Part shown: positions 46,646 to 63,418 of the stretch, piece after piece
Layout of the letters: every line of letters begins with the position of its first letter
Position numbering within the stretch: the stretch's first letter is position 1
Source: Rhodoferax sp.
GTDB lineage: Bacteria > Pseudomonadota > Gammaproteobacteria > Burkholderiales > Burkholderiaceae_C
Reading direction: 5' to 3'
DNA: 64,000 bases
NCBI GenBank assembly: GCA_019449595.1
Contig: JAGRPL010000009.1
Span: 1-64,000 of the forward strand
Made by a program: the position numbers and the translations under genes
Notes under the pieces: generated by a model
The model's input: the letters and a program-made list of their open reading frames with translations, nothing else
What the model was told of the DNA's origin: nothing
The model's database searches: none

Positions 46646-48151
46646 TCAGGATCGGGTTTGCGTCGCAGCCAGCCCCCGCACAAAGCCCATCAGTTCGCGG
46701 TCCACGTCCAGCGCGGCCACCACGGCGGCGGCCTGCTGGCGGTCGCGGTCGGCGCCGATGCGGGTTTGCAGCTTCACCGCCTGTCGGTACCAGCGGCGGG
46801 CTGCGGCTGGGGGGAGCAGGGGGCGTAGGGTTTCGATACCGTAGCGCAGACGCTTGGCGAGCAGGCGAACGCGGTGCGCGCTGTCGGGCTGGCCGGAATC
46901 TGCAAGTGCCTGTTGCAGTTGGTCATGCAGGCGCAGCATGCGCCGCCGGGCCCAGTGCTGCAGGTGCTTTTTTTGCCTCTTTCCCGCCGCATTCGGCGCG
47001 TCCAGCGCGGCGGCACCATCCAGCCACTGTGTAATCGCCAGCAGGGTGGCGCCCACCGAGGGCTTTTCCAGCGCGTAGCGCAGCGCTTTGCGCTGGAACT
47101 GGGCCGCCTGCAGCAGGGCGTGTTCCAGGGACTGCCATTGCGCTGTCCGCCGGGGGTCCCCGGCGGTGTAGGCCTGCTGCCAGGGCGGCAGCGTTTCCAT
47201 GCGGGCGACATCCAGGTCGCGCAATTCGCCCATGAACGTCAACAGGGGGTGCAGCGCGTGCCAAGCGGGCAGGGCCGTGCCCGCGTGAACAGACTTGAAC
47301 AGCCAGGTGGCGGTTCGCAAGCGCCGCCACCCGATCCGGGCCTGGTGCAGGACCTCGGGGTCCTCCGACCCGTACAGGGTGTTCAGGTTGCTGGTGAACT
47401 GGCCAACCGCCTCGCGCAGCACCCGTTGTGCGGCCTGTTGTATCGACAGGCGGGGGGGCAGTGCGGGGGACTGGGCCAGGGTGGGGGCGTGTGCCCGGTT
47501 CTGGACCAGGGCGTAGCCGCGTTCGGCCTTGCTGGTGCCCAGCGGCAGGGTGGCAACATGGCTGGCAATCTGCTGTGCCACGTCAAACAGGGCCTGGGGC
47601 TGGCCGGCAATCAGCTCCAGCTCCAGTTCGCAAATGGGTGCGCTGGTGTTGGCGTAGGCAATCTTCCCCATGTCCAGCGACACCTCCACCTGGCTGCCGT
47701 CGCGTTTGCGAACCAGCCAGCTGGTGCGGTCGAAAACTGTGACAAAAGCGGGCGCCAGGGTCTGGAACACGTGGCCATCCGGGTCGATGGCCGACCATGG
47801 CGTGTCCTGCAACGCGGCCTGCGACAAGCCGGTTCCGGCCACCGTGGATTCCCACTCGCCGCGGCGGCTCAATGCCGAATTGCCGGCGCCGCCGGTCTTG
47901 AGGGTCTGTACCCACCGGGGTCGGGCTTCGCCGGTCACATGCCGCATGCGCAGGGCGATGCGCTGGTGGTGCAGGGTCTGCTCCGGCGTGTCGTAGTAAA
48001 CGTTGTGCAGATGCTGGTGGGTCGTCTTGCGGCGCGCCAGCACCGGAAGACGGGCCAGCCGCTTTTCCAGGAGCGCGGGGCTGCCGGTGTGCAACACGGC
48101 GAGCTTGAGTTCGATTTCTTCCGGACGACGCAGGGGGGCAACAGGCTTCAT
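46646..48151 (-). CDS. CYTH and CHAD domain-containing protein (inorganic triphosphatase type)
   Basis: A 501-residue YgiF-like protein. The N-terminal CYTH domain (1-220) has the metal/triphosphate motif EIELK at 12-16 and ordered basic residues (RMRHV, QTLKTGG). The C-terminal CHAD domain (about 240-495) is helical with conserved His/Arg (VLHQARIGWRRLRTATWLF, AHRVRLLAKRLRYGIE) that bind polyphosphate in studied members. It hydrolyses triphosphate in E. coli. Its place beside ppk, ppx and pst suggests a role in polyphosphate metabolism. Confidence 0.92.
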   Translation of the reverse strand: MKPVAPLRRPEEIELKLAVLHTGSPALLEKRLARLPVLARRKTTHQHLHNVYYDTPEQTLHHQRIALRMRHVTGEARPRWVQTLKTGGAGNSALSRRGEWESTVAGTGLSQAALQDTPWSAIDPDGHVFQTLAPAFVTVFDRTSWLVRKRDGSQVEVSLDMGKIAYANTSAPICELELELIAGQPQALFDVAQQIASHVATLPLGTSKAERGYALVQNRAHAPTLAQSPALPPRLSIQQAAQRVLREAVGQFTSNLNTLYGSEDPEVLHQARIGWRRLRTATWLFKSVHAGTALPAWHALHPLLTFMGELRDLDVARMETLPPWQQAYTAGDPRRTAQWQSLEHALLQAAQFQRKALRYALEKPSVGATLLAITQWLDGAAALDAPNAAGKRQKKHLQHWARRRMLRLHDQLQQALADSGQPDSAHRVRLLAKRLRYGIETLRPLLPPAAARRWYRQAVKLQTRIGADRDRQQAAAVVAALDVDRELMGFVRGLAATQTRS

Positions 48152-48231
48152 GGCTTGGGGAGATTACCGCAACGGCCGCAAAAAGTCTGCCTTTCCCCAC
48201 ATACGGAGATGGGCACGCACAGGCGGCCTTC

Positions 48232-48271
48232 CTGTCACAGAACTGCCACCAAACTGACGTGAACGCGTCAC
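48232..48271 (+). promoter_or_regulatory. PHO box (PhoB-binding repeats) of the lipid-remodelling operon
   Basis: Four 7-base units at an exact 11-base period, CTGTCAC, CTGCCAC, CTGACGT and GCGTCAC, separated by AGAA, CAAA and GAAC. They match the PhoB direct-repeat consensus CTGTCAT with 4-base A/T-rich spacers. A -10-like CAGAAT follows 10 bases later (48282-48287), the normal spacing of a PhoB-activated promoter. Confidence 0.8.
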
Positions 48272-48317
48272 GGCCTGCTTCCAGAATCGCTGCATGACTT
48301 GCACGATGGAGTATGTG

Positions 48318-48536
48318 ATGGAAATGAATGTCAACCTCAGCCGAGATTCTGGAAACGGCGCAGGCCCCTTGGCTGGCAACCCCCTGCACGACTTTGAAAT
48401 GCAATGCCTGCGCGTTCTGCGCTGCACGGCCCAGGCGTTTGCCACCAGCCCCGGAGGGCTGCGCTTCAAGGCTGGCACCCGGCCCTGGCTGGACGCCCTG
48501 TCGGACCGCCGTCCCGACATTTCACCTGCCTGCTAA
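48318..48536 (+). CDS. Small protein gene between PHO box and terminator
   Basis: A 72-residue reading frame starting MEMNVNLSRDSGNG. ATG 48318 has GGAG 6 bases upstream; the frame also continues back to 48294, close to the predicted transcript start. The stop TAA is the first base triplet of a strong terminator hairpin, and the PHO box stands 47 bases upstream, so transcription is well defined. No family is recognised and no signal peptide or membrane segment is evident. It could be a PhoB-induced small protein, or the transcript could act as RNA. Confidence 0.5.
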   Translation: MEMNVNLSRDSGNGAGPLAGNPLHDFEMQCLRVLRCTAQAFATSPGGLRFKAGTRPWLDALSDRRPDISPAC

Positions 48537-48560
48537 GCCCCGTCGTCGGGGCTTTTTTTT
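48534..48560 (+). terminator. Terminator between the small gene and the acyltransferase gene
   Basis: AGCCCCG pairs with CGGGGCT around TCGT and is followed by eight T. It lies 40 bases before the acyltransferase ATG. The downstream operon has no PHO box of its own, so it must depend on read-through or on an unseen promoter. Confidence 0.88.
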
Positions 48561-48599
48561 GGTCCCGCGCACTACACAAACATTCAAGGAGTACACACC

Positions 48600-49421
48600 A
48601 TGGAAGAAACAACCCAGACGGGCCTGATACAGACCACGCCCCACTCGCATGCCACCGCCACGCCTGCCATCCGCACGGAGCCGAAGGAGACCCGTGGCGG
48701 CATTGTGGTGTCCTGGGCCCGGCACCTGGACGAAGTGCGCGCCGCGCAGCGGTTGCGCTACGACGTGTTCGCCGGTGAGATGGGCGCGCGCCTGAGCACA
48801 CCGATACCCGGCCACGACATGGATCTGTTTGACAACTACTGCGAGCACCTGCTGGTGCGCGACGAATGCAGCCAGCAGGTCATCGGCACCTACCGGGTCC
48901 TGACGCCGGTGCAGGCCAAACGCGTAGGCAGCACCTACAGCGACACGGAGTTCGACCTCACCCGCCTGCGCAGTCTGCGTGAGCGCATGGTGGAACTGGG
49001 CCGCAGCTGCGTGCACCCGGATCACCGTCATGGCGGTGTCATCATGGCCTTGTGGGGTGCGCTGGGGGAGTTCATGGTGCGCAACCAGCTGGACACCATG
49101 ATTGGCTGCGCCAGCATCCCCATGTTGCACAACGGCGTGGTCAGTGGGGACCTGGCGGCCAGCATCTGGCGCAAAGTGCAGGCTACCCACCTGGCGCCCA
49201 TCGAATACCACGTGCGTCCGCGCCTGCCGCTGCCGGTAGAGCAGCTCGATGGCTCGCTGGAAGTGGAACCACCCGCTTTGATCAAGGGCTACCTGCGGCT
49301 GGGCGCCAAGGTGCTGGGTGCGCCGGCCTGGGACCCGGATTTCAATTCCGCCGATCTGCCGATGCTGATGCGCATTGCCGATCTGCCCGCGCGCTACCGC
49401 AAGCACTTCCTGGGGACATGA
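48600..49421 (+). CDS. OlsB-like GNAT N-acyltransferase (ornithine lipid type)
   Basis: A 273-residue protein of the L-ornithine N-alpha-acyltransferase/hemolysin-like GNAT family. AAQRLRYDVFAGEMGA, DNYCEHLLVRD, IGTYRVLTP and ELGRSCVHPDHRHGGV are family landmarks. OlsB transfers 3-hydroxyacyl-ACP to ornithine, the first step to phosphorus-free ornithine lipids. An OlsA partner is not in the window. AGGAG lies 8 bases before the ATG. The stop overlaps the next start (ATGA). Confidence 0.82.
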   Translation: MEETTQTGLIQTTPHSHATATPAIRTEPKETRGGIVVSWARHLDEVRAAQRLRYDVFAGEMGARLSTPIPGHDMDLFDNYCEHLLVRDECSQQVIGTYRVLTPVQAKRVGSTYSDTEFDLTRLRSLRERMVELGRSCVHPDHRHGGVIMALWGALGEFMVRNQLDTMIGCASIPMLHNGVVSGDLAASIWRKVQATHLAPIEYHVRPRLPLPVEQLDGSLEVEPPALIKGYLRLGAKVLGAPAWDPDFNSADLPMLMRIADLPARYRKHFLGT

Positions 49422-50284
49422 TGCGAGCCGCTCCGGACGCCTTCGCACCGCTCTGGCCGCGCCTGTCTGAGAGCGCCGCCGCGGACCCCGACGTGCCGGG
49501 CCGGGGTGCGCGCTACCGGGCGATCTTCATTTCGGACATCCACCTGGGTACGGCGGGCTGTCAGGCCCGCGCCCTGCTGGACTTCATGAAGAACCACCCC
49601 AGCGAGTACCTCTACCTGGTGGGGGACATCGTCGACGGCTGGCAGTTGCGTCGGCGCTGGTTCTGGCCCCAGTCCCACAACGACGTGGTGCAAAAGCTGC
49701 TGCGCAGCGCGCGCAAGGGCTGCAAGGTGGTGTTCATACCCGGCAACCACGACGAATTTGCCCGGGGCTTCCTGGGGCACCAGTTTGGCGGCATCGAGGT
49801 CTGCGAGGATGCAGTGCACACCACGGCCGATGGCCGCACGCTGTGGGTTACCCATGGAGACTACTTTGATGGCGTCATCCAGTGCGCCAAGTGGCTGGCC
49901 TATGTGGGCGACAACCTGTACGAGTTCACGCTCAAGCTCAACCGGTATTTGAACGGGCTGCGGGCACGCCTGGGCCTGCCGTACTGGTCGCTTTCGGCCT
50001 ATCTGAAGCACAGGGTCAAGTCAGCTCTCAACTACGTGACCGACTTCGAGGTGGCGGTGGCCAGCGAGGCGCGGTCACGCGGACATGATGGGGTGGTGTG
50101 TGGACACATCCACCGCGCCGAAATGCGCGACATCAACGGCACCCTGTACTGCAACGATGGGGACTGGGTGGAAAGCCGCAGCGCCCTGGTGGAGCATCTG
50201 GATGGGCGACTGGAGCTGCTGTACTGGACGGACACGGATAGCCGGACCTCGCAGGCGGCTGCCTTGCAGGAGACACCGGCATGA
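49418..50284 (+). CDS. PlcP/LpxH-like metallophosphoesterase
   Basis: A 288-residue calcineurin-fold enzyme. Metal motifs are ISDIHLGT (residue about 38), GDIVDGW, PGNHDE, THGD and GHIHRAEM. It is similar to LpxH (UDP-diacylglucosamine hydrolase) but closer in pattern (WFWPQSHNDVVQKLLRSARKG, LGLPYWSLSAYLK) to PlcP, the phospholipase C of phosphate-starved alphaproteobacteria. It is coupled by ATGA overlaps to an acyltransferase and a glycosyltransferase. PlcP activity is the preferred inference; LpxH activity cannot be excluded. Confidence 0.8.
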   Translation: MMRAAPDAFAPLWPRLSESAAADPDVPGRGARYRAIFISDIHLGTAGCQARALLDFMKNHPSEYLYLVGDIVDGWQLRRRWFWPQSHNDVVQKLLRSARKGCKVVFIPGNHDEFARGFLGHQFGGIEVCEDAVHTTADGRTLWVTHGDYFDGVIQCAKWLAYVGDNLYEFTLKLNRYLNGLRARLGLPYWSLSAYLKHRVKSALNYVTDFEVAVASEARSRGHDGVVCGHIHRAEMRDINGTLYCNDGDWVESRSALVEHLDGRLELLYWTDTDSRTSQAAALQETPA

Positions 50285-51363
50285 AGCTGGCACTGGTGAC
50301 TGATGCCTGGCTGCCGCAGGTCAATGGCGTGGTGACCACGCTGGTGGAACTGGTGCGTGAAATGGAAGGGCAGGGGCATGTGGTGACGGTGATCCACCCC
50401 GGCTTGTTTCCTACCCGGCCGTGCCCCGGCTACGCCGGCATCGACCTGGCTGTGCGCCCGGGACCGGCCCTGGCGCGCCAGCTCGACGCCCTTGAGCCCG
50501 ACGCCATCCATCTGGCTACTGAAGGCCCTTTGGGCTGGGCGGCGCGGCGTTACTGCCTCAAGCGTGGCCTGGCATTCACCACCACTTTCCACACCCGCTT
50601 CCCGGAGATCCTGAAGGCTGCCCTGAAAATTCCGCTGTGGGTGGGTTATGCCGTGTTCCGGCATTTTCACAAGCCGTCCAGCGGGGTTCTGGTGCCGACA
50701 CCGAGCGTTCTGCGCATGCTGGAGTCGCGGCGCTTTCGCAACCTGCGCAGCTGGACCCACGGCGTGGACACGGCGCTTTTTACCTACCAGGAGCTGCCCC
50801 GCGTCCATGCCCCGTTGGGGTGCCTGGCCCGCCCGGTATCGCTGTTTGTGGGGCGGGTGTCATACGAGAAGAACATTGAAGCCTTCTTGCAACTGGACGT
50901 TCCGGGTACCAAGGTGGTCTGCGGCGTGGGGCCCATGGAGCTGGCGTTGCGCGAGCGCTATCCGCAGGTGCGCTGGCTGGGTGTTCTGCCCCGGGATGTG
51001 CTGGCGCAGGTTTACGCTGCCGCCGACGTGTTCGTCATGCCCAGCCGCTCGGAGACCTTCGGCCTCGTGATGCTGGAGGCCATGGCCACGGGGACACCTG
51101 TGGCCGCCTTTCCGGTGGAGGGGCCATTGGAGGTGGTCGGCAGCCCGCCGGGTGGTGGTGCGCTGGATCACGACCTTGCCCGTGCCTGGTACAGCGCGCT
51201 ATCCGTTCCCCGCCATGAAGCGCGCAACCGCGCGCTGGCATTCAGCTGGCAGCGCGCGGCGCAGATGTTTCTGGGGTATCTGGTTCCGGCCCGTCGCGGT
51301 GTGCCAGGGGAGTGTCAGGCTGCGCTTCACGGCTCTGTCACGCAAATGTCACCGAAATCGTAA
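50281..51363 (+). CDS. Glycosyltransferase family 4 (Agt-like glycolipid synthase)
   Basis: A 360-residue GT-B glycosyltransferase. MKLALVTDAWLPQVNGVVTT opens it; GRVSYEKNIEAFL binds the donor and PSRSETFGLVMLEAMATGTPV is the GT4 nucleotide-sugar site. Agt-type enzymes glycosylate diacylglycerol released by PlcP. The start overlaps the phosphoesterase stop by four bases. Its last 29 bases lie inside the PHO box of ppk. Sugar donor and acceptor are inferred from context. Confidence 0.82.
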   Translation: MKLALVTDAWLPQVNGVVTTLVELVREMEGQGHVVTVIHPGLFPTRPCPGYAGIDLAVRPGPALARQLDALEPDAIHLATEGPLGWAARRYCLKRGLAFTTTFHTRFPEILKAALKIPLWVGYAVFRHFHKPSSGVLVPTPSVLRMLESRRFRNLRSWTHGVDTALFTYQELPRVHAPLGCLARPVSLFVGRVSYEKNIEAFLQLDVPGTKVVCGVGPMELALRERYPQVRWLGVLPRDVLAQVYAAADVFVMPSRSETFGLVMLEAMATGTPVAAFPVEGPLEVVGSPPGGGALDHDLARAWYSALSVPRHEARNRALAFSWQRAAQMFLGYLVPARRGVPGECQAALHGSVTQMSPKS

Positions 51364-51402: not shown

Positions 51403-53508
51403 ATGTCGACCCTTCCTCGCCGTTCTCCGCCGTCGCAGGCTTCCAAGGCGCCAGATCTGCTGGATCGCGATCACAGCTTGCTGGCCTTCAATGAGCGCGT
51501 GCTGGATTGGGCGGTCCGCGACGACGTTCCCCTGATCGAGCGCCTGCGCTACCTCTGCATCGTGTCCTCCAACCTCGACGAGTTCTTTGAGGTGCGGGCG
51601 GAGCCGCATTTGCTGGCCAACCAGGCCAACGACCGCAAGGGAATCTACACCGTTGGCTCGTTTGAACGGCTGGCGGCGGCGCTGCACAGCATCGTGGACC
51701 GCCAGTACGCCGTGTACAACGAGAAGCTGATGCCGGCGTTCGAGAAACAGGGCATCAAGATCATGTCGCACGGAGACCGCAATCCGGCGCAGCGCCATTG
51801 GGTCAAGCAGTACTTTGAGCGCGAAGTGCGGCCGCTGCTGATTCCCGTGGGGCTGGACCCCTCCCACCCGTTTCCCCAGGTAGCCAACAAGTCGCTCAAT
51901 TTCATTGTGCGCTTGAGCGGTCGGGACGCCTTCGGGCGGGAAAACGAAATCGCCATCGTGAAGGTGCCGCGTGTGCTGCCGCGCCTGATCCGCATGCCTG
52001 ACAAGGTGTCGGGTTCGCGCACGCTGTTTGTCTCGCTGTCCAGCGTGATCCGCGCCCATCTGGGAGAACTGTTTCCCGGTCGTGCGGTGGGCCAGTTCTC
52101 GCAGTTCCGGGTGACGCGGCATTCCGATCTGGCGGTGGACGAGGATGACGTCAAGAACCTGCGCATGGCCTTGCGCCAGGGGTTGGTGCACCGCAATTAC
52201 GGGCAGGCGGTCCGGCTGGAGGTGTCGGCGGGCTGTTCCGAGCATCTGTGCGACTTCCTGTTGCACCAGTTTGACTTGCCGCAGAAGGCCCTGTTCCGGG
52301 TCCACGGACCGGTGAACCTGGTTCGCCTGACGCAGCTGATTGACCTGGTGGATCGACCGGACCTGTGCTTTCCCCCCTACAAGGCGTCGTACCCGGTGCA
52401 AATGGGCACCACGCAATCCATTTTTGAACAGCTCAAGCAGGGCGACATCCTGATCCACCAGCCGTTTGAGAGTTTCGATGGCGTGGTGGACTTTCTGCGC
52501 CAGGCGGTGAACGACCCGCAGGTGCTGGCCATCAAACAGACCATCTACCGTGCCGGCACCGATTCCGAGGTGATGGACCTGTTGCGTGAGGCCGTGCGCC
52601 GCGGCAAGGAAGTTACCGTGGTGGTGGAGCTCAAGGCCCGTTTTGACGAAGAAGCCAATATCAACTGGGCGGAAATGCTGGAGTCCATCGGGGCGCAGGT
52701 CGTATACGGCGTGGTGGGCCTCAAGACCCATGCCAAGATGATGCTGGTCACGCGGCGGGAAGGCAAGGCACTCAAGCGCTATGGCCATCTGTCGACCGGC
52801 AACTACAACCCGCGTACCGCGCGCCTGTACACCGACGTGAGCCACATCACGGCAGACCCGGTGCTGACCGCAGAAATGGAACATGTGTTCGTGCATCTCG
52901 CCAGCCAGAGCCGGCTGCCCGCGCTGCGCAAGCTCTGGCTGGCCCCGTTCTACCTGCAGCGCAACCTGATTGCCAAGATTGACCGGCTGGGCCAGGCGGC
53001 CAGCCAGGGCAAGGCGGCCCGCATCGTGGCCAAGATGAATTCCCTGACCGACGAGGCCCTGATTCACAGCCTCATGCGGGCCGGCCGGCAGGGCGTGAAA
53101 ATCGACCTGATCGTGCGCGGCGCCTGCACCCTGCCGGCGCAGGTGGCGGGGCATACCGACAACATCCGGGTGCGATCGGTCATCGGCCGTTTTCTCGAGC
53201 ATTCACGGGTGTTCTATTTCCGGGAAGGCGAAGTCGAGGAGCTGTACCTGTCCAGCGCCGACTGGATGAACCGCAACATGGTCCGCCGCGTGGAGTTGGC
53301 GTGGCCGGTCACCGACCCGGTGCAGCGCCAGCGGCTGGTGGACGAGTGCCTGGTGGCGTACCTGCACGACGGCGTGGACGCCTGGGACATGGGCCCTGAC
53401 GGCACATACACCCGCTGCCGGAGCGACGGCACGGTTGCCGTGCATGGTGCGCAGGCGGCGCTCATGGCGCGCTATACCAGCAACGGTAACGGGCATCACG
53501 GAGGATAA
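51403..53508 (+). CDS. ppk: Polyphosphate kinase 1
   Basis: A 701-residue PPK1 that makes polyphosphate from ATP reversibly. LLDRDHSLLAFNERVLDWA opens the N domain; the phosphorylated His is in VGLKTHAKMML, with the second phospholipase-D-like motif in IDLIVRGACTLPAQVAG. ATG 51403 follows a PHO box closely. sixA begins 4 bases after its stop. Confidence 0.96.
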   Translation: MSTLPRRSPPSQASKAPDLLDRDHSLLAFNERVLDWAVRDDVPLIERLRYLCIVSSNLDEFFEVRAEPHLLANQANDRKGIYTVGSFERLAAALHSIVDRQYAVYNEKLMPAFEKQGIKIMSHGDRNPAQRHWVKQYFEREVRPLLIPVGLDPSHPFPQVANKSLNFIVRLSGRDAFGRENEIAIVKVPRVLPRLIRMPDKVSGSRTLFVSLSSVIRAHLGELFPGRAVGQFSQFRVTRHSDLAVDEDDVKNLRMALRQGLVHRNYGQAVRLEVSAGCSEHLCDFLLHQFDLPQKALFRVHGPVNLVRLTQLIDLVDRPDLCFPPYKASYPVQMGTTQSIFEQLKQGDILIHQPFESFDGVVDFLRQAVNDPQVLAIKQTIYRAGTDSEVMDLLREAVRRGKEVTVVVELKARFDEEANINWAEMLESIGAQVVYGVVGLKTHAKMMLVTRREGKALKRYGHLSTGNYNPRTARLYTDVSHITADPVLTAEMEHVFVHLASQSRLPALRKLWLAPFYLQRNLIAKIDRLGQAASQGKAARIVAKMNSLTDEALIHSLMRAGRQGVKIDLIVRGACTLPAQVAGHTDNIRVRSVIGRFLEHSRVFYFREGEVEELYLSSADWMNRNMVRRVELAWPVTDPVQRQRLVDECLVAYLHDGVDAWDMGPDGTYTRCRSDGTVAVHGAQAALMARYTSNGNGHHGG

Positions 53509-56338: not shown

Positions 56339-57045
56339 GGCGCCGCTGCCCCGGCGTCGGGTGTTCGCGGGGGGCTGCCCAGGGTCAGGGCTATGCGCCG
56401 CCGCAGCCGTGTCGCTTCCTCCGGGTTGCCCGCCTGCTCGGTGCGCTGGGCCTGCACGCCAAGCCAGGCCAGCAGGGGCCGGCGCCAGCCTTGGGCGGAT
56501 GCCGTTTCCGTGGCGTGTGCGATGACGGCGGGGGTGGCCGTGCCGGCCTGAAGCATCACGCCGGCGGCAACCAGCTGCGACAGGGGTTCTGCAGCCGCCA
56601 CCACGGCGCTGGCATCACCCGTGGCCGCGGCACGCTGGAGGGGTGGTAGCAGGGCAATGTCTTGTGGCGGTACGCGGCCCTGCAGGTAGTCGGCGTAGGC
56701 GCGCTGGGCGGGCAGGGCATCCGGGCGCAGGGCTTCGAAGGCCGTACACGGTTCAAAAACCAGGCTGGCCACCCGGGTGGCGCAGTGCAGCAGTTCGGCG
56801 GTGGCCAGCAGGTCGGCGCGGCCGGTGCGGCCGAGCTGGCTGCGCGCGCGCAGCAGCTCGGCCATCTCGACGCGGTTGTTTCCCTCCAGATAGGCAGCGA
56901 CGGAGCGCTCCATGGCGTTGCGGGCTTCGAGTTGCCAGTCCGGTGGCTGGGGTGTGCTGCCACAGGCGCTGAGCAGGGCGAGGCCCGCAAGGGGCAGGGC
57001 TTTGCGCAGGGCCGCGGGCTGCAGGATTCGGGCAAAGGCATTCAT
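56335..57045 (-). CDS. Lipoprotein of the MCE transporter operon
   Basis: A 236-residue lipoprotein with lipobox LLSAC at residues 24-28 and Gly29 after the Cys. The rest is helical and Ala/Leu-rich with TPR-like periodicity and a Pro/Ala-rich C-terminus. It is unlike the ABC-type auxiliary lipoprotein usual for MCE systems. It overlaps mlaD by four bases, so a role in the lipid transporter is likely; its exact part is unknown. Confidence 0.78.
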   Translation of the reverse strand: MNAFARILQPAALRKALPLAGLALLSACGSTPQPPDWQLEARNAMERSVAAYLEGNNRVEMAELLRARSQLGRTGRADLLATAELLHCATRVASLVFEPCTAFEALRPDALPAQRAYADYLQGRVPPQDIALLPPLQRAAATGDASAVVAAAEPLSQLVAAGVMLQAGTATPAVIAHATETASAQGWRRPLLAWLGVQAQRTEQAGNPEEATRLRRRIALTLGSPPRTPDAGAAAP

Positions 57046-57956
57046 GGCAGTTTCATCTCCGCATCACGGGCAAATGGCCACTTGCGGTTGATGTCGTTGA
57101 CCAGGCCCTCGATCTTGCGCAGGTTGGCGTCCACGTCGGCCCGCAGGGCTCCCAGATCGGCACTGGCGTCCTTGGCGTTGGCGCTGATGGCCTGGGCATC
57201 CTGCAGCACGGCATCCACTTTCTTCAGACTGGTACGCGCTTCGCCCAGCAGGGCGTTGAGTTGCAGGACGGTGGCGCGGGTTTCGGGCAGCACCCCTTTT
57301 TCGCCGAAGACCTGGGTGTCGGTCTTGCCTGCCAGGGTGTCGAGCTTGGTGAGCAGGGCGTTGGTGCGTCCCAGGGTGGCAATGAATTTCTGGGCCTCTG
57401 CTTCGTTGCCCAGGAGCACGGTGAGCACGCCACCCGGGTCGTTGAGGCGGCTGGTCAGGGTGCCCAGGTTGTCGAGCAGCGTCCGGGCCGATGCGATGGC
57501 CTTGGGGATTTCGGCGCTGGTGTCGCCTTGCAGCACGGTGCGTACGGCGCCGTCCGGCAGGGGCGGGTCTTCCAGCAGGCCGGTGTAGGCGCGCAGGTTG
57601 GTGCTGCCCACCACGCCGCGTACCAGTGTGAAGACGCTGGTGGTGCGCAGCCAGTGGGCGTCCTTGGTGGCAACGTCCACCAGAATGCGTGCCTTGCCGT
57701 CAGCGGCCAGCTCAATGTGGCGCACCCGGCCTATGGGAAAGCCGGAAAACGTGAGGTCCATGCCGACCACCACGCCCTCGGAGTCTTCGGCCACCAGCAC
57801 CAGTTTCTGGGTGGCATCAAATGCGCCCCGCGCGTACAGCACGTACAGCACCGAGCCGCACAGCAGCAGCAACATGAATACCATCAACAGCCGGGCCTTG
57901 AGTTCCAGGTGGGCTATCGGTGGTGTGTTGGGTTCGTGGGGTGAGCTCATGGGCAT
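57042..57956 (-). CDS. MlaD-family MCE domain protein
   Basis: A 304-residue protein with an N-terminal membrane anchor (about 27-43) and an MCE domain (45-125; EDSEGVVVGMDLTFSGFPIG), then a long helical region of weakly repeated heptads. MCE proteins form periplasmic rings or tubes that carry phospholipid between membranes. Start 57956 avoids overlap with mlaE; 57950 is equally possible. Confidence 0.88.
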   Translation of the reverse strand: MPMSSPHEPNTPPIAHLELKARLLMVFMLLLLCGSVLYVLYARGAFDATQKLVLVAEDSEGVVVGMDLTFSGFPIGRVRHIELAADGKARILVDVATKDAHWLRTTSVFTLVRGVVGSTNLRAYTGLLEDPPLPDGAVRTVLQGDTSAEIPKAIASARTLLDNLGTLTSRLNDPGGVLTVLLGNEAEAQKFIATLGRTNALLTKLDTLAGKTDTQVFGEKGVLPETRATVLQLNALLGEARTSLKKVDAVLQDAQAISANAKDASADLGALRADVDANLRKIEGLVNDINRKWPFARDAEMKLP

Positions 57957-57969
57957 GCCATATTCGGTG

Positions 57970-58773
57970 TCAATAGTAGTTGCCAACCAGCGAGGCGATT
58001 TCCACCAGCAGTATCACGGAAAACATGCGGACCAGCCCGCGGATTTCTGCGCTGGTGCGCAGGCGGGTTGTGTGCGGGTCGTACAGGGCCGAGGCCATGG
58101 GAATCAGGGACACCGCCAGGCAAAAGAACAGAATTTTGAGGACGAAGATCAGGCTGACGGCGGGGCTGAACACCTGGCCGAACAGGCGGGTGTAGACCGC
58201 CAGGCCCGATACGGTGAACCCGTAGCTGGCCAGATAGGTCACCACCAGAGTCACCACGCTGCTCAGGGCTGCCAGCGTGACGCCGGCAAACAGGCCGCCA
58301 ATGACCCGGGGCAACACGACGCTGCGTACTGGGTCCTGGCCCTGGCGGCGCATGGCGTCGAGCTGGCCTGCCGTCTGCATCGCCGACAGCTCCGCTCCAT
58401 CGGGAATCGTGCAGCGCAGTGCGACGAACAGCGCCGCGGTCAGGGGGATGAGTTCGAGTACCAGGACCCGGATGACCAGTTGCAAGGCGTACTGCGACAG
58501 GCCGTAACTCAGGGCCGTGACCAGCACGATGCGGGTGAGTACCACGGTCACCAGCGCGCAGAGCACCGTGAAGCCGGCCAGGATGGGAGCGGTGTGCAGA
58601 TAGATATGCCGGGCCAGCGCCGGGCGGTTCGCGCGGCGGTAGCTTGACGGGGAGAGAACCAGCACCAGAATGACCGCGCCCAGCTCCAGCAGGCGCCACC
58701 AGCCCAGGAGCCATTGCTGCGCGGCCTGGCCGGTGCGATCCAGCCAGCGTTGCCATGAAACCGTTGAGGTCAT
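57970..58773 (-). CDS. MlaE-family lipid ABC transporter permease
   Basis: A 267-residue permease with about five membrane segments and the MlaE pattern (QTAGQLDAMRRQGQDPVRSVVLPRV, which contacts the ATPase). It is the first gene of a four-gene minus-strand operon with mlaD, a lipoprotein and a small protein. The expected MlaF ATPase gene is absent; upstream is ppx, 51 bases away. Confidence 0.88.
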   Translation of the reverse strand: MTSTVSWQRWLDRTGQAAQQWLLGWWRLLELGAVILVLVLSPSSYRRANRPALARHIYLHTAPILAGFTVLCALVTVVLTRIVLVTALSYGLSQYALQLVIRVLVLELIPLTAALFVALRCTIPDGAELSAMQTAGQLDAMRRQGQDPVRSVVLPRVIGGLFAGVTLAALSSVVTLVVTYLASYGFTVSGLAVYTRLFGQVFSPAVSLIFVLKILFFCLAVSLIPMASALYDPHTTRLRTSAEIRGLVRMFSVILLVEIASLVGNYY

Positions 58774-58824: not shown

Positions 58825-60333
58825 TCAGGTGGCAGCCACGTCGAGGGACCACGGGGTTTTTTGCCAGGCCAGTGCCTCTTCGCGCAGCAGGTAGGCGGAC
58901 TGCGGAAAGGCTTCGGCCCACCCGGCGCGGCAGCGCAGGCGCACGGTGCGGTTGTGCGTGGCCGAGCGTGCCAGTGTCATGCCGGTCAGATCCGGGTCAC
59001 GCCGGGCGTGGCACAGGATGACGGCCAGGCGCAGCGCCATCAGCTGCATGACCAGATCGTCGTCTCCCAGCACGGCTTCGAGCTTGCGCAGCTTGCCGCG
59101 GTGCCCGAGCACCAGCAGGCTGAGGCGGTGCATTTCCGACAGCGAGAACCCCATGGCATCGGCGTTGTCCAGGATGTAGGCACCGTGCTTGTGGTAGTCA
59201 CTGTGGGAGATGTGGCTGCCAATTTCGTGCAACTGGGCGGCCCAGCTGAGCTTGCGCAGGGAACGGTCTTCGTCGGGGGGCGCGCCATCGCGCGGGGCGG
59301 GCATCAGTTGCTGGAGCAGCAGCGCCGCCACGTTTCCCACGCGGGTGCCGTGGGTGGTGTCGACCCCGAACTTGCTTGCCAGGCGCCGCACGGTCTTGAC
59401 ACGCAGGTCATCTGCGTGGTCGGCCGTGCCCAACATGTCGCACAGCAGGCCATGGCGCAGCCCGCCGCTGGCCTGTTGCAGGGACTGGATGCCCAGCAGG
59501 CTGAAAACGGCGCGCACCACGCTCACGCCGCCGCCGATGATGGCCTTGCGGTCTTCGCGCATGCCGGCCAGCCGCAGGCGGTCGGCGCTCTGGGCGGTCA
59601 CCAGCTTGTCGACCAGCCAGTCCAGGCCCTCCTGTGTCACGGTGCCGGCGGGCCAGCCGGCCGCTACCAGGACGTCGACAATGGCGCCCACCGTGCCGGC
59701 CGAGCCATAGGCCACGTCCCAGCGGCCGGGGTGGTAGGCGTCGAGGGCCTCGTCCAGCACCGCCTTGGCCGCGATTTCGGCAATGTCGAATGCCTTGCGG
59801 GAAAACTGGCCGTCGGGGAAGTAGCGGTTGGACCAGGCAATGCTGCCCACCCGGAACGACTCCATGACCTGGGGGGCAAGGCCCTGTCCCAGCACGAGTT
59901 CGGTGGATCGCCCGCCGATGTCGATGACCAGGCGCCGCTCTTCGGACTGGGGCAGCATGTGGGCCACGCCCTGGTAGATCAGCCGGGCCTCTTCCCGCCC
60001 CGAAATGACATTGATGGGGAAGCCGAGAATCTGGTTGGCCCGGTCGAGGAATTCGTCCCGGTTGCGGGCCTCGCGCAGGGTTTGTGTTGCCACGGCGCGC
60101 ACTTCGGTGGGCTTGAACCCAGCCAGGCGCTCGCCAAAGCGGGCCAGGCAGTCCCAGCCGCTTTGCATGACCTGGGGGGTCAGGTTGCGGTCATCGTCCA
60201 GCCCGCCACCCTGGCGCACGGTTTCTTTCAGGTATTCGGTGCGCCGGAACTCACCGTGGTCCACCCGTCCGATTTCGAGACGAAAACTGTTGGATCCCAA
60301 ATCCACGGCCGCCAGGCGATTTCCGTTTTCCAT
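58825..60333 (-). CDS. ppx: Exopolyphosphatase (Ppx/GppA family)
   Basis: A 502-residue enzyme that releases phosphate from polyphosphate ends (or hydrolyses pppGpp). LAAVDLGSNSFRLEIGRV and VIDIGGRSTELVLGQG are the actin-like phosphate loops; the C-terminal HD-like region (about 310-490) is complete. It is the counterpart of ppk in this cluster. No PHO box was seen upstream. Confidence 0.94.
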   Translation of the reverse strand: MENGNRLAAVDLGSNSFRLEIGRVDHGEFRRTEYLKETVRQGGGLDDDRNLTPQVMQSGWDCLARFGERLAGFKPTEVRAVATQTLREARNRDEFLDRANQILGFPINVISGREEARLIYQGVAHMLPQSEERRLVIDIGGRSTELVLGQGLAPQVMESFRVGSIAWSNRYFPDGQFSRKAFDIAEIAAKAVLDEALDAYHPGRWDVAYGSAGTVGAIVDVLVAAGWPAGTVTQEGLDWLVDKLVTAQSADRLRLAGMREDRKAIIGGGVSVVRAVFSLLGIQSLQQASGGLRHGLLCDMLGTADHADDLRVKTVRRLASKFGVDTTHGTRVGNVAALLLQQLMPAPRDGAPPDEDRSLRKLSWAAQLHEIGSHISHSDYHKHGAYILDNADAMGFSLSEMHRLSLLVLGHRGKLRKLEAVLGDDDLVMQLMALRLAVILCHARRDPDLTGMTLARSATHNRTVRLRCRAGWAEAFPQSAYLLREEALAWQKTPWSLDVAAT

Positions 60334-62374: not shown

Positions 62375-63418
62375 ATGAATATTTCCTTCAACCGTGCCGC
62401 AATGGTGCTTGCCGTTACGTCTTCCCTGGGCTTGGCTGGTGCTGCCAGCGCACAGGAAATCACGGGTGCCGGCGCAACCTTTCCTGCGCCCATCTATTCC
62501 AAGTGGGCTGCGGACTACCACAAGGCCACGGGCGTCAAGGTGAACTACCAGTCCATCGGCTCGGGCGGCGGCATCAAGCAGATCGACTCCAAGACGGTGG
62601 ATTTTGGTGCGTCCGACATGCCCCTGACCGACGAAGTCCTGAAGACCAAGGGCCAGATGCAGTTCCCCACCGTGATGGGTGGCGTGGTGCCGGTTCTCAA
62701 CGTCAAGGGTATTGAACCCGGCCAGCTGAAGCTGACCGGCCAGGTTCTGGGTGACATTTACCTGGGCAAGATTTCCCGCTGGAACGACCCCGCCCTCAAG
62801 GCGCTCAACCCCACCGTGGCATTGCCCGATGCGGCCATTGCCCAGGTTCGCCGCGCCGACGGTTCGGGCACCACGTTCCTCTTCACCAATTACCTGAGCA
62901 AGGTCAACGCCGAGTGGAAGTCCAAAGTGGGCGAGGGCACGGCAGTGAACTGGCCCGTGGGCGCTGGCGGCAAGGGCAATGAAGGCGTGGCTGCATTTGT
63001 GAGCCGCCTGCCCAACTCCCTGGGCTATGTGGAGTACTCGTACGTGAAGCAGAACAAGCTGACCTACGCCATCATGCAGAACGCCGCCGGCAACTTTGTC
63101 AAACCCGAAGATGACGCATTCAAGGCCGCAGCTGCAGGTGCCGACTGGGCCAAGTCGTTCTACCAGGTGCTGACGAACCAGCCCGGCAAGCAGGCCTGGC
63201 CCATCACTGGCGCGACGTTCATTCTGATGCACACCAAGCAGGACAAGCCCGCGAACGCCTCCGAAACGCTGAAGTTCTTCAGCTGGGCCTACAAGAATGG
63301 CGACAAGGTGGCTGCCGATCTGGACTATGTGCCCATGCCCAAGGCTGTGATTGCCGCGATCGAGAAGTCCTGGGGTGAGATCAAGGACACGTCCGGCAAG
63401 CCGGTTGCGTTCAAGTAA
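62375..63418 (+). CDS. pstS: Phosphate ABC transporter, substrate-binding protein PstS
   Basis: A 347-residue periplasmic phosphate-binding protein. A signal peptide ends near [25 protein letters not shown] and [20 protein letters not shown] bind phosphate, and [18 protein letters not shown] follows. It supplies the high-affinity PstCAB channel under phosphate limitation. AGAGGG precedes the ATG. Confidence 0.97.

Follow-up and report, generated by a model that had tools for sequence, protein, structure and literature searches.

A probable PhoB-activated membrane-remodelling operon, olsB-plcP-agt, in a Rhodoferax genome

The DNA considered here is a stretch of 64,000 nucleotides from Rhodoferax sp. 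(Burkholderiales; assembly GCA_019449595.1, contig JAGRPL010000009.1, positions 1 to 64,000; hereafter, the window), in which three adjoining genes, olsB, plcP and agt, appear to encode enzymes of aminolipid and glycolipid formation. We argue that this locus is, with high probability, a membrane-remodelling operon activated by PhoB. The argument is built from the sequence, namely, from the identities and layout of the genes, a PHO box, conservation among relatives, and the finding that lpxH and an OlsA-like gene are encoded at other places in the genome; from these, we infer the induction, the enzyme activities, the lipid products and the readthrough of a terminator at the operon head.

The gene run and its PHO box

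All three genes are on the + strand: an olsB-like gene for an N-acyltransferase (48600..49421), plcP for a phospholipase C-type metallophosphoesterase (49418..50284, with the ATG at 49418 or 49421), and agt for a glycosyltransferase (50281..51363). The open reading frames lie where the initial annotation had placed them, and the olsB/plcP and plcP/agt junctions are both ATGA overlaps, as it had described. Upstream of the run, at 48232..48275 (+), stands the PHO box of four units with an 11-base period that had likewise been claimed. Scored against CTGTCAT, its units, CTGTCACAGAA CTGCCACCAAA CTGACGTGAAC GCGTCACGGCC, make up the top three-unit (16/21) and four-unit (20/28) match on both strands of the 64 kb, and neither score was attained by any of 500 dinucleotide shuffles of the region 48152-48599. 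The two-unit score (11/14) is one of several ties and was attained by three of the 500 shuffles, the highest two-unit score of the window, 12, being found elsewhere. A weaker PHO-like site, at 51324..51356 (+), is located in the 3' end of agt, ahead of ppk; its three-unit score of 14/21 is the best of that region and was attained by 15 of 500 shuffles. A PHO box of 11-base period before an operon is the mark by which membership of the Pho regulon is judged, and PhoB-dependent induction is the behaviour to be expected of this locus.

The two enzymes of the glycolipid branch resemble known counterparts. The plcP product shows 49% identity to the PlcP of Sinorhizobium meliloti and 50% to that of Pseudomonas aeruginosa; these reference rows come from strains other than those tested, and we take them to be the proven PlcPs on the grounds of their neighbours (acyl-homoserine lactone synthase and LuxR genes in S. 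meliloti, cyclase and MlaD genes in P. aeruginosa) and of the known gene order. The agt product is a GT4 protein (PF13439, PF00534) that is 49% identical to the product of the gene following plcP in P. aeruginosa, that is, the gene in the position of Agt1, and deletion of agt1 in strain PAO1 is reported to abolish monoglucosyldiacylglycerol (MGDG) (PMC8528852). Since the protein is both the sequence kin of a proven Agt and encoded next to plcP, it is predicted to be a diacylglycerol glycosyltransferase, the sugar transferred being glucose or glucuronate.

Conservation of the arrangement among named relatives can be judged from 80 loci (hereafter, the named loci), the best of a set of at least 593, which were annotated by tblastn with a floor of 55% identity. 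At these loci, olsB adjoins plcP in 42 cases and plcP is adjacent to agt in 32; the complete order olsB-plcP-agt-ppk is present in 30, olsB-plcP-ppk without agt in four, olsB-plcP only in five and olsB alone in nine, with four loci cut by a contig end. The next gene after olsB, olsB-plcP or olsB-plcP-agt is ppk in 62 of the 80. Counted by genomes, olsB lies directly 5' of plcP on the same strand in at least 58 of 200 members of the family (the 150 OlsB matches listed cover 148 of the 166 genomes with OlsB). The PHO signal is conserved as well: 65 of the 80 named loci have a PHO-like site upstream of olsB that is attained by at most five of 100 shuffles, and a site ahead of ppk is seen in 40 of the 65 relatives tested with mononucleotide shuffles. 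In Variovorax, olsB has no plcP next to it; the view that this reflects a loss of the pathway was rejected because PlcP is encoded elsewhere in 19 of 19 Variovorax-titled genomes; altogether, 35 genomes were queried, 27 with and eight without PlcP. Ready comparisons are offered by those relatives in which olsB-ppk is retained and plcP lies elsewhere or is missing.

Several observations weigh against the reading of the locus as a PhoB-activated lipid-remodelling operon. The order is olsB-ppk, with no plcP-agt in between, at 28 of the 80 named loci, and no PHO mark is found within the 420 bases searched before olsB at 15 of the 80. In the window itself, a strong terminator, described below, separates the sole clear PHO box from olsB and leaves 37-45 bases for a further promoter. 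The first product of the run misses the cut-offs of both OlsB equivalog models (153.6 bits against 350 for NF052554, 143.7 against 320 for the second) and, therefore, is named OlsB-like here. As to its partner enzyme, OlsA, the genome has six PF01553 genes, three of which were checked against OlsA models. Furthermore, in a sample of 200 family genomes (with thresholds of E 1e-30 for PlcP and 1e-15 for the OlsA-like gene), 26 of the 34 genomes without OlsB retain an OlsA-like gene; given this retention and the presence of the gene in 191 of the 200 genomes, it may mainly serve phosphatidate synthesis.

The OlsB-like acyltransferase and its candidate partner

The olsB-like product, ACYLTRANSFERASE, belongs to the Acetyltransf_5 family (PF13444; E = 1.1e-34, 119.6 bits, over the cut-off of 22.4), and among NCBIfam families it matches the two OlsB models best. 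Their cut-offs are also missed by two OlsA-linked relatives (142.7 and 160.9 bits on the first model), and the OlsB rows of S. meliloti and Paracoccus clear one model each. The identity is 33-35% to these two rows (33% to S. meliloti) and 42-50% to OlsA-linked proteins of Methylomagnum, Kitasatospora and Streptomyces (46% to the Kitasatospora OlsB), the genes for which sit directly ahead of an OlsA-type gene. The window protein is an OlsB-like member of a distant subfamily. In Streptomyces coelicolor, ornithine lipid is reported to need olsB and to become one of the major lipids when phosphorus is limiting (PMC4686642).

The linkage of the nearest relatives to OlsA speaks for ornithine lipid as the product and against the alternative that the protein acylates lysine, glutamine or another amine, or that its product is a free N-acyl amino acid, such that the aminolipid would not be ornithine lipid. 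This alternative, which we regard as unlikely, has in its favour the bit scores under the equivalog cut-offs, the 33-35% identity to the alphaproteobacterial OlsBs, a four-residue insertion relative to the other four aligned rows and a weak match to FeeM (22.8 bits against a cut-off of 27), and it has a precedent in the Acinetobacter OlsB, which is reported to yield both ornithine and lysine lipids (PMC11828411). The distribution of the two genes is, again, less favourable to it. In the sample of 200 family genomes, 149 carry PlcP, 166 carry OlsB and all save nine carry the OlsA-like gene; eight of these nine also lack OlsB; the Fisher p of this co-absence is 2.6e-6, the tables having been compared by hand and kinship not removed.

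No second Acetyltransf_5 gene was found in the genome at E 0.01. The best OlsA candidate among the three PF01553 genes compared, C7:176138-176905, reaches 137.8 bits with the NCBIfam model NF052553 (cut-off 300); it is unlinked to the operon and has no clear PHO box ahead of it, the best three-unit score in 500 bases being 11/21, a value that has no shuffle control. This gene is the putative OlsA partner of the window OlsB. The initial annotation had assigned ornithine lipids to the locus by way of the OlsB-like gene; the operon itself is without olsA.

Proposed transcription from the PHO box into olsB

The upstream position of the PHO box had been recognized correctly; the small gene and the terminator that separate it from olsB had been missed. 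The small gene, the first cistron after the PHO box, occupies 48294..48536 (+, including the stop), with a likely start at 48318 that would give a protein of 72 amino acids. In 28 pairwise comparisons of eight sequences, single-base codon differences are 380 synonymous versus 123 nonsynonymous in its frame, as compared to 74:420 and 37:440 in the other two frames, a pattern that marks the gene as coding and under coding selection. The core of the protein reads approximately QCLRILRCTA-A-A-SPGGLRF-AGTRPWL; the small gene matches no NCBIfam and no PHROG family, the window copy matches no Pfam family, and another member has a Pfam match at E 0.22. The gene was found in seven of 399 family genomes including its own, five of the seven being from one genus and one being a weak match (8.9e-4); it was not found in four other sampled genomes of the window's own genus, with 14 candidates scored per genome. 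Two of the named loci, L016 and L023, carry it.

Where the small gene ends, a hairpin followed by a T-run resembles an intrinsic terminator (48535..48562, +; hairpin 48535-48554). It has a stem of eight pairs, six of them G-C, a four-base loop and an energy of -14.7 kcal/mol; the outer two A bases are part of the TAA stop codon of the small gene, and the G-C stem starts at 48537. Transcription of the window olsB, then, has either to cross this terminator or to begin in the few dozen bases that remain. Similar hairpins follow the stop of the small gene at a distance of six bases in L106 and L107 and of 15 bases in L109; none was found by the same scan in L108 and L110. In L016 and L023, no terminator follows the small gene, and olsB begins at its end.

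Tentatively, the PHO-driven small gene with a terminator beginning in its stop codon can be envisaged as a translation-coupled attenuator. A ribosome finishing at the stop codon would mask the 5' arm of the hairpin, so that the polymerase would continue into olsB-plcP-agt; lipid remodelling would then require, in addition to PhoB, that the small protein be translated, and this new protein may have an effect of its own on the lipid enzymes. Unlikely, in our estimation, is that the terminator simply stops transcription, with the PHO box driving the small gene alone and olsB-plcP-agt served by a weak or constitutive promoter of its own. The strength of the window hairpin and the like hairpins in L106, L107 and L109 would suit such an arrangement; however, a consensus search for sigma-70-like promoters, in itself a weak test, gave none on the + strand between 48100 and 51700, no terminator comes between the small gene and the olsB that starts at its end in L016 and L023, and in many relatives the PHO-like site stands directly ahead of olsB.

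Other genes stand ahead of olsB in some relatives. In L025 (5260-5841) and L038 (5245-5838), a PHO-like site more than 700 bases upstream of olsB is followed by an open reading frame, then by a terminator and then by olsB; neither frame has a Pfam match, and their products are 48% identical over 177 amino acids; the two may represent another PHO-led first gene of no known family. In L034 (4784-5812), the gene for the alkaline phosphatase PhoX lies directly 5' of olsB-plcP-agt-ppk, from which a terminator-like hairpin separates it.

For the operon as a whole, the following sequence of events is proposed. Under low phosphate, PhoB bound to the PHO box would activate transcription of the small gene and, past the terminator, of olsB, plcP and agt, the readthrough being helped by the terminating ribosome. 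PlcP would cleave phospholipids to diacylglycerol and phosphate-bearing head groups, Agt would add glucose or glucuronate to the diacylglycerol, and OlsB would acylate ornithine or another basic amino acid, to which the unlinked OlsA would attach the second acyl chain. By these steps, phospholipid would be replaced by a glycolipid and an aminolipid.

The LpxH label, spread of the gene cluster and known systems

In a tree of 24 rows, the middle gene groups with PlcP, and the LpxH sequences, which have long branches, fall outside (LpxH versus PlcP split, 100/100), in line with the initial annotation. Its product is only 20-22% identical to LpxH of its own genome and of Escherichia coli and has GNHD where both aligned LpxH rows read GNRD. 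A search for a separate lpxH points to a second relative in the genome, C13:746172-746813, which is likely the true lpxH: it scores 183.2 bits with the LpxH model, slightly less than the cut-off of 190.35, and adjoins two cyclophilin (ppiB-like) genes, just as lpxH of E. coli adjoins ppiB. The reading of the middle gene as LpxH or a working LpxH paralogue, and of the operon as part of lipid A synthesis, was rejected as extremely improbable on account of the tree, the low identity and the separate lpxH, the weak matches to the NCBIfam LpxH models that would favour it (43.2 bits, cut-off 134, and 36.1 bits, cut-off 190.35) being both under the cut-offs and paralleled by a similarly weak match of the P. 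aeruginosa PlcP. Thus, the middle gene is plcP, and its predicted reaction is the hydrolysis of phospholipid to diacylglycerol. As had been foreseen, annotated PlcP relatives carry the public label 'UDP-2,3-diacylglucosamine diphosphatase', and the trait is hidden because databases name its key gene LpxH.

Two database records met in these comparisons deserve mention. A record given as a P. aeruginosa plasmid (NZ_CP137508.1, L099) bears an apparently chromosomal plcP-agt1 region, which would imply either a faulty assembly or the presence of chromosomal DNA on a plasmid; an S. meliloti 'pSymB' record of 3.7 Mb (CP090106.1; L005, L098) carries plcP, olsB, lspA and mutS and looks chromosomal.

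The phosphate-related neighbours that had been claimed are all within the window: ppk1 for polyphosphate kinase (51403..53508, +; NF003918, 1073.8 bits, cut-off 691), a Ppx/GppA gene (58825-60333, -) and a phosphate-binding-protein-like gene (62375-63418). Between ppk and ppx are genes for an MlaE permease and an MlaD-like protein (57042-58773, -), the latter with 24.1 bits, slightly under the cut-off of 25.1; an MlaD-family gene is likewise found a few kb off the plcP-agt locus of P. aeruginosa. Divergent from the PHO box is the gene of a CYTH-CHAD protein (46646-48151, -), a family tied to polyphosphate, which could share the intergenic region.

Beyond the family, 300 genomes of the order, ten of them from the family, were sampled at E 1e-40 for PlcP and 1e-20 for OlsB; PlcP was found in 155 and OlsB in 218. 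Outside the family, among the matches listed, olsB and plcP are at most 10 kb apart in 17 of the 85 genomes with both genes and not so in 68. The 17 span eight GTDB families and show plcP>olsB, olsB>plcP, divergent and convergent arrangements. Ten of these stretches were annotated by tblastn: ppk is divergent from olsB-plcP-agt in L115; olsA is divergent from plcP-agt, followed by olsB and ppx, in L112; olsB-olsA is divergent from a glycosyltransferase gene, plcP and an agt-like gene in L116; L119 has agt-plcP, ppk, ppx, olsA, olsB and a partial pstS, and L120 has olsB-olsA and agt-plcP. An OlsA-like gene occurs in six of the ten, adjoining olsB or plcP in L112, L113, L116 and L120 and lying elsewhere in the stretch in L118 and L119; in the other four, none was found. 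PHO-like sites attained by at most ten of 200 shuffles were present in 11 of 19 outside-family upstream regions, and eight failed. That olsB and plcP cluster in differing orders argues strongly, if provisionally, for a joint function and suggests that both branches have been selected together.

PlcP, Agt, OlsB and PHO control are all known; the olsB-plcP-agt grouping, its order-wide spread and the small gene look little described. No description of an olsB-plcP-agt operon was found in the open-licence literature, searched mostly by title and abstract, in agreement with the initial annotation's view of such an operon in a betaproteobacterium, nor was anything found in that literature joining OlsB to Comamonadaceae. 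The original work on PlcP and Agt was reportedly done in Sinorhizobium, Agrobacterium and SAR11. The initial annotation's attribution of PlcP-Agt pairs to alphaproteobacteria is correct, except that they are not confined there, being reported from Pseudomonas (PMC8528852) and methanotrophs (PMC9239053), with PlcP in 155 of the 300 order genomes. The literature found covers marine alphaproteobacteria, Pseudomonas and methanotrophs, and Burkholderia for ornithine lipid alone: for Burkholderia sensu lato, ornithine lipid and predicted Pho boxes before olsB are reported in a text that does not use the word PlcP (PMC7814305), and in Pseudomonas putida BIRD-1, PlcP and OlsAB are both reported as PhoBR-dependent, their locus tags being distant (PMC5082522). 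If the proposed reading is true, many phosphate-starved Burkholderiales would swap phospholipids for aminolipids and glycolipids, and one large group would do so under a single control.

Compared with the known PlcP-Agt systems, those of P. aeruginosa (PA3219-PA3218), Sinorhizobium/Agrobacterium, roseobacters, SAR11 and methanotrophs, the window locus has the PHO box and 49-50% protein identity in common and, as in the P. aeruginosa copy, agt follows plcP at once, with a four-base overlap; it differs in having olsB ahead of plcP in the same run and ppk after it, whereas in P. aeruginosa the olsBA operon is reported to be separate from plcP, agt1 and agt2 (PMC9804370). In six types of marine plcP neighbourhood, plcP is described, as in the window, next to PHO boxes and genes of phosphorus-free lipid synthesis, but the partners named there are btaAB and glycosyltransferases, not olsB, and the word 'betaproteobacteria' is absent from the main text of that report (PMC4796936). 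With the OlsBA pathway of S. meliloti, S. coelicolor, Burkholderia and Acinetobacter, the window shares the PHO box before olsB, and it is similar to A. baumannii, where olsB is reported to have a Pho box and the unlinked olsA to be unresponsive to phosphate (PMC11828411). It differs in that the window OlsB is of a branch nearer to the rows from actinobacteria and methanotrophs than to those from alphaproteobacteria, and in that its gene stands in one operon with plcP and agt.

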